From a virus, in IMG/VR virus record IMGVR_UViG_3300021961_000142, positions 1-51,662 of that record: a stretch of 51,662 nucleotides of DNA; one strand, 5' to 3'. The position numbers and the translations under genes were made by a program. Positions 17,061-18,779 of the stretch are shown in pieces. Under the pieces are notes generated by a model. That model was given only the letters and a program-made list of their open reading frames with translations, searched no databases and was not told where the DNA came from. Numbering within the stretch: position 1 is the first letter of the stretch; every line of letters begins with the position of its first letter.

Positions 17061-17489
17061 TTAGAGATCTCCTCTGCGAGGTCTTTCTTCTGTAGATGGT
17101 TCTTCACTTACTACTTCAGCAGGTGCCTCTTCTACAGGAGGTTCTGGAGTTGGTTCTTCCCAGATAGGTTGTACTTCTGGTTCGACTCTCTCTTCCTCTT
17201 CTTTAGGACGTGAATATACAGGTACTTCTGGTAGAGATCCACCATTGGTAGCACCACCATTCATGCCTGTTTTACTAGCAACTGCCACACCGAATCCCGC
17301 TAAGGATCCAGAGAAGACAGACGCGATGAAAGTGGGGTCAAAGTCCATGACTTTTTGACCACCAGGAAGCCTCACATATGAGGCGGTGAGTAGACCTGCG
17401 CTCCAGATAAGAATAATAATTCTAACTAGATCACCTAACCATTCTCTTTTTTCTTCGCGGTCTGCTCCTTCTGAAACCTTAGGTAGCAT
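17061..17489 (-). CDS. Holin-like membrane protein, 142 aa
   Basis: Two hydrophobic segments (about residues 21-39, LVRIIILIWSAGLLTASYV, and 53-72, FIASVFSGSLAGFGVAVAS) follow a short charged N-terminus. The C-terminal half is a Glu/Pro-rich cytoplasmic-type tail. The topology and its place between two lysozyme genes fit a class II holin, but holins share little sequence and the long acidic tail is unusual. A CTAAATA motif 29 bp upstream points to late expression. Confidence 0.6.
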   Translation of the reverse strand: MLPKVSEGADREEKREWLGDLVRIIILIWSAGLLTASYVRLPGGQKVMDFDPTFIASVFSGSLAGFGVAVASKTGMNGGATNGGSLPEVPVYSRPKEEEERVEPEVQPIWEEPTPEPPVEEAPAEVVSEEPSTEERPRRGDL

Positions 17490-17526: not shown

Positions 17527-18138
17527 TTATGACTTCCACAGTTCGCCTTCTGCCTTACGGCGTCTAGCAAGACCTGCTTCGACATGACTTCCAGGATTAC
17601 GATATAAGAACAATGCTTCTGGGACTTGATCCCATTCTTTGTTCTTCAGTCGTTTTGTAATAGTATTGAAATTATTGCCGCCGTAGAAACCAGCGCCAAG
17701 GTTATAAGCAAAACTGAGTAAAGCACCTCGTTGTCCATCGCTCATTTCGTCCCAAAATGGAATCTTACGCAGCGAAGGTATAAACTGCTTACGGCATTGG
17801 TCCACGAGTAAGGCATCTGCCTCATCTTGTGTAATCTTTTGTCCCAGTTTGAAGGGGTTTCCGTTTTTGTCTCTTGTGGACCCCCATCCGATTGTGATTG
17901 GGGGTCCTCCTGAAAGAGGGTCAGGGTAAGCCTCCAAATGACAACCTTCAAATTCCTTGATTAACTTCAAACCAACAGGGGGTGCCTCGTCGGGTGGAGT
18001 CTTAGCACCGCCGCCAGCACCCCAAGCAGGGGCAGGAGCGGTGGGTTCAGCGGCAGCAGCAGGGCCACTGCCGCTTGCTACTTTGGGAGTTCTTGAGAGA
18101 AGATACGACCCCAACCATCGTTGCCACCAGGACACCAA
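17527..18138 (-). CDS. GH24 lysozyme, probably made by -1 frameshift from the upstream peptidase gene
   Basis: The domain (from about LKLIKEFEGCHLEAYPD, then ITIGWGST) is T4-lysozyme type: catalytic Glu, Asp and Thr are in place, followed by FNLGAGFYGG and GLARRRKAE. It hydrolyses murein. The open frame has no ATG: upstream of the domain only TTG (18138) and GTG (18135) could start it, neither with a good Shine-Dalgarno site. Instead it is joined in the -1 frame to the upstream peptidase at CCCAAAG (18081-18087). A 35-residue Ala/Pro/Gly linker follows the join, so the product would be peptidase-linker-lysozyme of 417 residues. Confidence 0.8.
   Translation of the reverse strand: MVSWWQRWLGSYLLSRTPKVASGSGPAAAAEPTAPAPAWGAGGGAKTPPDEAPPVGLKLIKEFEGCHLEAYPDPLSGGPPITIGWGSTRDKNGNPFKLGQKITQDEADALLVDQCRKQFIPSLRKIPFWDEMSDGQRGALLSFAYNLGAGFYGGNNFNTITKRLKNKEWDQVPEALFLYRNPGSHVEAGLARRRKAEGELWKS
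18049..18087 (-). promoter_or_regulatory. Programmed -1 frameshift cassette (slippery heptamer and stem-loop)
   Basis: Read on the minus strand: C CCA AAG (18081-18087) in the peptidase frame, immediately followed by its TAG stop. A 5-nt spacer (18076-18080) separates it from a perfect 8-bp GC-rich stem AGCGGCAG/CTGCCGCT (18068-18075 with 18049-18056) with an 11-nt loop. The heptamer fits X XXY YYZ: both tRNAs can re-pair in the -1 frame (CCC, AAA). Confidence 0.8.
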
Positions 18139-18779
18139 CGCTTAGCAAGGTGAGACTTCTTGTAGACGGCACCCTTACCGTTCATAACATCAGAAGAATA
18201 ACCATCGTTTAGATCGCCATAAGGATCATTAACGATATAGTCTTCGCCCTTCTTACCGATAACTACACACATGTGACCGCCCTTAGGAGCACTAAGAGTA
18301 CCACGGTGGAGAATACCGATAACAACGGGTTTACCAGCAGCAAGCTGTTTGTCAAGATCAGCAAAGGACAAGTTGTAGGAAAAAGTGGACTTGACGCCAA
18401 ACTTCTCCAGAACCTTCGTCTGAACGGCGTGGTCAGTAGTGTCACCAATCTTGAATACTTCCTTGACATAAGCATCATCACCTTTTGGTCCTGCAGGTAG
18501 TGTGCCAGGCTTGAAATACTCTAGGCACATCGCACAGGAGGAAGAATTACAGGTACGCTCAGCGTTGGTGTAATTATCTGTCTGTGGGTAGTAAGGAACC
18601 TTGAGTGGGTTAGTAATCCCTGCAGCGCCTGCCACTGGTTTCCTAAACACTTTAACCCATTCTGAGTTATCGTCAAGGTATTCTTTTGGAAGATTGTCTT
18701 CTAGCCACTGCACCGCAGCAACGTGCTGAGGGTTTTCATGTTTATAAAATCTGAAAAAATTGTGGAGATCGATTTCCAT
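18078..18779 (-). CDS. C39-like cysteine peptidase, 233 aa, frame 0 of a probable fusion
   Basis: After an N-terminal 65 residues, the core reads VPYYPQTDNYTNAERTC, then NSSSCAMCLEYF with the nucleophile Cys and the upstream Gln oxyanion, GGHMCVVIG with the His, and YIVNDPYGD with the Asp/Asn. This is the Peptidase_C39_2 pattern. Such domains cleave peptides, including peptidoglycan cross-links in some phage enzymes. The frame stops right after the slippery heptamer, so most ribosomes make 233 residues and a fraction would continue into the lysozyme. No signal peptide is visible. Confidence 0.8.
   Translation of the reverse strand: MEIDLHNFFRFYKHENPQHVAAVQWLEDNLPKEYLDDNSEWVKVFRKPVAGAAGITNPLKVPYYPQTDNYTNAERTCNSSSCAMCLEYFKPGTLPAGPKGDDAYVKEVFKIGDTTDHAVQTKVLEKFGVKSTFSYNLSFADLDKQLAAGKPVVIGILHRGTLSAPKGGHMCVVIGKKGEDYIVNDPYGDLNDGYSSDVMNGKGAVYKKSHLAKRWCPGGNDGWGRIFSQELPK

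Follow-up and report, generated by a model that had tools for sequence, protein, structure and literature searches.

A very probable programmed -1 ribosomal frameshift between a C39-like peptidase and a GH24 lysozyme in cyanophages

Results

A peptidase and a lysozyme encoded in overlapping frames

We analysed a 51,662-nt stretch of viral DNA, the full IMG/VR record IMGVR_UViG_3300021961_000142 (hereafter, the window), in which a C39-like peptidase gene is overlapped at its 3' end by a lysozyme frame in the -1 register. The locus contains the following features:

18078..18779, minus: C39-like cysteine peptidase, short 0-frame product of 233 aa, with an ATG start (PF13529, phrog_3617, Foldseek)
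18081..18087, minus: slippery heptamer C_CCA_AAG (0-frame CCA AAG), the same as in the relatives L010-L014 and L023
18078..18080, minus: 0-frame stop TAG, directly after the heptamer (sequence)
18049..18075, minus: stem-loop downstream of the heptamer, of 12 bp with a 3-nt loop and a 5-nt spacer (folding)
17976..18081, minus: Ala/Pro/Gly linker in the -1 frame, VASGSGPAAAAEPTAPAPAWGAGGGAKTPPDEAPP (sequence, relatives)
17527..17975, minus: GH24 lysozyme domain in the -1 frame (PF00959, phrog_3617 columns 224-405)
17061..17489, minus: DUF6450 small membrane-like protein (PF20048, 3e-26)

The peptidase ORF ends with GAA CTC CCA AAG TAG, and the -1 frame remains open up to a stop at 17529-17527, so that a fusion of both frames would have 417 residues. 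Ahead of its domain, the lysozyme frame of the window has no ATG and only TTG/GTG codons, none of them preceded by a Shine-Dalgarno-like motif. The heptamer, the CCA AAG TAG end, the lack of an ATG in the -1 lysozyme frame and the length of 417 residues had all been claimed in the initial annotation, made from the sequence alone, and all of them held. That annotation also described a perfect 8-bp stem after 5 nt with an 11-nt loop; this was correct for the outer 8 bp, but folding adds inner pairs, extending the stem to 12 bp and reducing the loop to 3 nt. The predicted stem has a free energy of -21.7 kcal/mol (z -3.69 against dinucleotide shuffles, with 0/200 as good). No upstream Shine-Dalgarno-like frameshift stimulator was seen at the window site.

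Window ORFs of at least 80 codons contain 42 in-frame heptamers, among which that of the peptidase opens by a wide margin the longest -1 extension (184 codons); the runner-up, with 69 codons, is also a conserved site. This rank, together with the recurrence of the layout in dozens of independent relatives (see below), argues that it is not due to chance.

The peptidase is composed of an N-terminal helical module (residues ~1-50) and a peptidase domain (~59-187), with a match to Peptidase_C39_2 (PF13529, 6e-14), and occupies columns 1-233 of phrog_3617. Residues C77, H169 and D185 are invariant. The best Foldseek match of its structure model, which has a moderate pLDDT of 72 and is weakest around the Cys, was the C39-like peptidase 3erv, and among its other matches, to related proteins with a papain fold, was the pseudomurein endoisopeptidase PeiR; sequence profile searches found no relatives of solved structure. 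Profile, residues and model show that this is a C39-like papain fold with conserved Cys/His/Asp. Likewise, the lysozyme domain is a GH24 enzyme by its whole-domain match to Phage_lysozyme (PF00959, 2e-22), covered at 125/125 positions, and by the sequence EFEG...YPDP...TIGWG, which corresponds to the E/D/T catalytic motif. The enzymatic activity of either half is inferred.

The peptidase-lysozyme gene is placed between an RlpA-like gene and the DUF6450 gene, with a tail-lysozyme-like protein and a gp5-like hub as other neighbours in the window. The RlpA-like DPBB protein (19592-19194, minus; PF03330, 3e-23) is wall-related; its ORF call uses a TTG start and overlaps a tRNA-Val. The DUF6450 protein might conceivably be a holin, a role that we only infer. 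From the annotation of relatives, a function of the peptidase-lysozyme in host lysis is likely, with both the lysis requirement and export through a holin remaining inferences; given the proximity of the gp5-like hub gene, a virion-borne role cannot be ruled out.

A conserved heptamer in relatives without a lysozyme ATG

Searches of phage records and IMG/VR yielded ~270 related loci. For each we determined where the peptidase stops and in which frame the lysozyme lies; after discarding identical junctions, we grouped the loci by arrangement. In 97 distinct loci the peptidase end is overlapped by a GH24 lysozyme in the -1 frame, and 79 of these contain a canonical heptamer, as opposed to a heptamer near the peptidase end in just one of 99 C39 loci of any other arrangement (Fisher p ~1e-35, uncorrected for relatedness). 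Many loci are close kin, the 79 heptamer loci grouping into 24 clusters at 85% identity, and p-values are indicative only. The heptamer is A_AAA_AAG in 69 loci, C_CCA_AAG in seven (window included) and T_TTT_TTT in three, so the window has one of the rarer variants of a system in which A_AAA_AAG predominates. The distance from the heptamer to the 0-frame stop is 0, 3 or 6 nt (0-2 codons) in 79/79 loci, and the linkers, of 18 different lengths, keep the -1 phase in all of them. The conservation of heptamer, stem (see below) and stop in homologous loci, which the initial annotation had proposed as a check, is thus strongly positive.

Within the 97 overlapping loci, the heptamer occurs in all 74 without an ATG in the lysozyme frame, versus five of the 23 with one. 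The 18 loci without a heptamer have their own ATG, either as an ATGA overlap or behind a ribosome-binding site. For 46 of the 79 heptamer loci there is no ATG, GTG or TTG in the lysozyme frame ahead of the domain, and a search of those 46 found no near-cognate start preceded by a Shine-Dalgarno motif. The five heptamer loci that also have a lysozyme-frame ATG are L002 (S-SRM01), L031, L080, L105 and L108; the first three combine a weak stem with an ATG that shares bases with the stop (ATGA). ATG-started relatives lacking the heptamer, which the initial annotation had considered a potential refutation, exist only as a separate class, and this class confirms the rule by exclusion: the heptamer is mostly absent where the lysozyme has its own start and always present where it has no ATG.

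A pattern search with the peptidase end and heptamer fixed and the lysozyme frame free, partly overlapping the first locus set, matched at least 120 stretches with A_AAA_AAG and 10 with C_CCA_AAG. A lysozyme could be recognised at 101 distinct junctions, and at 99 of them it was in the -1 frame; at the remaining two, a 0-frame stop is missing and the lysozyme is fused in frame. The lysozyme phase of separate-gene relatives, which is also -1 in 38 of 48, was not taken as a random control, given the close kinship of these loci.

The frameshift layout is also found in the cultured phages S-PM2 (two records) and S-CAM7 (three isolates), for which the database annotation gives a lysin of 72-91 residues that starts inside the domain, beyond the EFEG motif. 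Separately, two loci (L046 and L047) contain seven A, not six, at the heptamer, producing an in-frame fusion that could be a natural variant or an assembly slip.

The downstream stem is under selection

The stem starts 3-8 nt past the heptamer and reaches at least 8 bp in 68/79 loci. Compared with a null in which the same -1 protein is encoded by random synonymous codons, it was significant (p<0.05) in 60/79 loci. The arms have 67 different sequences, and in the 19 alignable loci we observed compensatory double changes at four of 13 pairs, with 98.8% of cells paired; sliding the partner by 1-3 columns lowered pairing to 30-51% and left no double changes. Whole-region MFE z values were modest (mean -1.7 vs -0.6 in controls), the stem-anchored test being the sharper one. 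The synonymous null and the compensatory changes show that the stem is under selection.

Alternative arrangements of the same domains

In-frame C39-GH24 fusions exist in ACG-2014f, MA01 and S-B68, and PHROG 3617 contains both halves colinearly. In the C39 tree, in-frame fusions related to ACG-2014f surround the T_TTT_TTT group (S-CAM7) within one clade, and the C_CCA_AAG group shares its clade with loci that for the most part have no lysozyme; the three heptamers occur in different clades. These placements imply that the arrangement changed repeatedly and that different heptamers serve one junction, although the tree contains 28 unresolved forks and unsettled bootstrap values, and we claim only rough numbers of changes.

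Lysozymes encoded by separate genes usually begin with a module of ~50 residues that shares 48-63% identity with the N-terminal module of the C39 protein, and a similar Ala/Pro linker accompanies it. This module (DLHNFFKFYDE...; observed in the separate lysozymes of L003, L004 and L120-L194) is helical by prediction and has no match in Pfam. It is reasonable to infer that the lysozyme needs this module, frameshifting being one of three ways to attach it; a role of the module in targeting or binding is likewise inferred. Some cyanophage lineages live without the peptidase-lysozyme fusion.

Other arrangements were observed. Six lysozymes (L034, L037, L039, L200, L247 and L263) have a different N-terminal module (IKFIDAVKNHKDLPHQ...FARRYRNQ), an ATGA-overlap start and no heptamer. 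The order is reversed, with the lysozyme upstream of C39, in L005, L204, L207, L211, L212, L219, L233 and L255, and in S-CREM1 (L005) both domains form one in-frame protein. The peptidase ends of L016-L018 and L074 resemble decayed heptamers (CCACCTAAG TGA; GTAAAA TAA), with no lysozyme found downstream, which could reflect loss of the signal together with the lysozyme.

A second candidate site at gp26/gp51

The window contains a second candidate for a conserved -1 frameshift, in the gp26/gp51 region (28637-27721), also inferred from its sequence:

28637-27924, minus: gp26-like baseplate hub gene, ending TCT TTT TTC GCG TAG
27936-27930, minus: candidate heptamer T_TTT_TTC

A gp51-like frame (baseplate hub assembly catalyst, PHROG 634, 2e-22) follows in -1, without a start codon. 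A TTTTTTN heptamer lies 0-3 nt before the stop in 44/44 distinct gp26/gp51 loci examined (window included), many with an apparent downstream inverted repeat. This site resembles known tail-chaperone frameshifts.

Discussion

Our results make it very likely (probability about 0.93), in the absence of protein evidence, that a programmed -1 ribosomal frameshift produces both a 233-residue peptidase and a 417-residue peptidase-lysozyme. The locus meets the criteria for a -1 cassette: an X_XXY_YYZ heptamer in 0-frame register, a downstream structure, and conservation of both the site and the -1 extension. The structure is expected at about 5-9 nt, compared with 5 nt in the window and 3-8 nt in relatives. 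Of the heptamers measured in E. coli, three stand out as the most efficient -1 motifs (C_CC.A_AA.G, G_GG.A_AA.G and A_AA.A_AA.G), with C_CC.A_AA.G reaching 54% when combined with the IS3 pseudoknot (PMC4066793); two of these three are exactly the C_CCA_AAG and A_AAA_AAG found here. Slippage itself and its efficiency in these phages are inferred.

In the mechanism that we propose, the ribosome would pause at the stem 5 nt past C_CCA_AAG, when the stop codon is the next to be read, and the Pro and Lys tRNAs would re-pair one base upstream (CCC AAA). The fraction of ribosomes that slips would go on to translate the flexible linker and then the GH24 lysozyme; all others would terminate at once. 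Both products would have the N-terminal module in common; the lysozyme would therefore be delivered with the module, in a ratio set by slippage. The two products predicted in the initial annotation are thus supported, although expression of the transframe protein is still an inference.

We considered three alternatives. In the first, the lysozyme is a separate translation product, initiated either at a non-ATG codon within the linker or through termination-reinitiation where the peptidase stops. In its favour, TTG/GTG codons are present in the lysozyme frame of the window, one class of relatives uses an ATGA overlap or a Shine-Dalgarno plus ATG, and five heptamer loci also contain an ATG. Against it, over half of the heptamer loci (46/79) offer neither an ATG, GTG or TTG before the domain nor a near-cognate start with a Shine-Dalgarno, the heptamer is nearly exclusive to loci lacking an ATG, and the stems and phase-keeping linkers would be left unexplained; we regard it as very unlikely.

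The second alternative, that the RNA polymerase rather than the ribosome slips to yield the fused frame, appears equally improbable. Transcriptional slippage is conceivable on the six A of A_AAA_AAG and on the eight T of the S-CAM7 group, hairpins can assist, and the run of seven A in L046/L047 goes with an in-frame fusion. Conversely, runs in the CCCAAAG of the window clade do not exceed three bases, the heptamer respects the codon register of the frame, and both the adjacent stop and the 3-8 nt spacing suit ribosomal stimulation. Finally, a sequencing or assembly indel, for which it counts that a one-base change would join both frames, or a decaying pseudogene, is all but excluded and already refuted for the family, because numerous assemblies contribute to the ~79 distinct loci with this layout, it is repeated in two S-PM2 records and three S-CAM7 isolates, each domain is intact as well as conserved, and the stem is under selection.

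Among known systems, tail chaperones are the common case of phage frameshifting (PMC10885494). The -1 frameshift of the lambda gpG/gpGT type gives a short and an extended product with a common N-terminus. The cyanophage locus is similar in having a phage gene pair, an X_XXY_YYZ heptamer near the first stop and a shared N-terminus, but the lambda-type products are morphogenesis chaperones whereas the cyanophage halves are domains of wall-cutting enzymes. We rejected a tail assembly chaperone (G/GT) as the identity of this pair: such a gene would encode a chaperone and precede the tape measure gene, whereas here the domains are enzymes and the gene is flanked by the RlpA-like and DUF6450 genes. 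The cassettes of E. coli dnaX and of IS3/IS911 share A_AAA_AAG or a related heptamer and a downstream stem or pseudoknot (PMC5009743, PMC4066793), although they belong to unrelated genes and the window has no visible upstream Shine-Dalgarno-like stimulator. Two-product endolysins (Ms6, PlyC, phi-vML3) also make more than one enzyme form from one lysis locus (PMC3111421), but through internal starts, such as the embedded in-frame lysin of Ms6, separate subunits or overlapping genes. PRFect (PMC10885494) counts phi-vML3 among the lysins with a known frameshift, but PMC3111421 presents it as a lysin together with a holin-like protein; for Ms6 gp1/lysA, a frameshift is no more than a suggestion there. 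Closest are the in-frame cyanophage fusions (ACG-2014f, MA01, S-B68; PHROG 3617), with the same domains in the same order and, in S-B68, the same gene neighbourhood as in S-PM2, yet these have a single open frame that gives only the long form, without heptamer and stop. We found no description of a cyanophage endolysin frameshift in the open PMC literature searched, subscription papers being outside that scope.

If true, tailed phages would have, in a lysis-type enzyme, a conserved frameshift that does not belong to their structural genes. It would account for the annotation of the S-PM2 and S-CAM7 lysozyme as a fragment without its catalytic start. The many natural variants permit comparing signal strength, spacing and stop context, and it becomes testable whether a fixed ratio of peptidase to peptidase-lysozyme is needed for timely lysis. 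Attention is also drawn to the uncharacterised ~50-residue module common to cyanophage wall enzymes. The layout occurs in many viruses of marine and freshwater cyanobacteria. In a bolder reading, which we consider likely, a widespread T4-like cyanophage lineage sets the stoichiometry of its wall enzymes by frameshifting: slippage would provide all of the lysozyme, as part of the fusion, against a surplus of N-terminal module and peptidase, with the module supplied interchangeably by frameshift, in-frame fusion or a duplicated copy.
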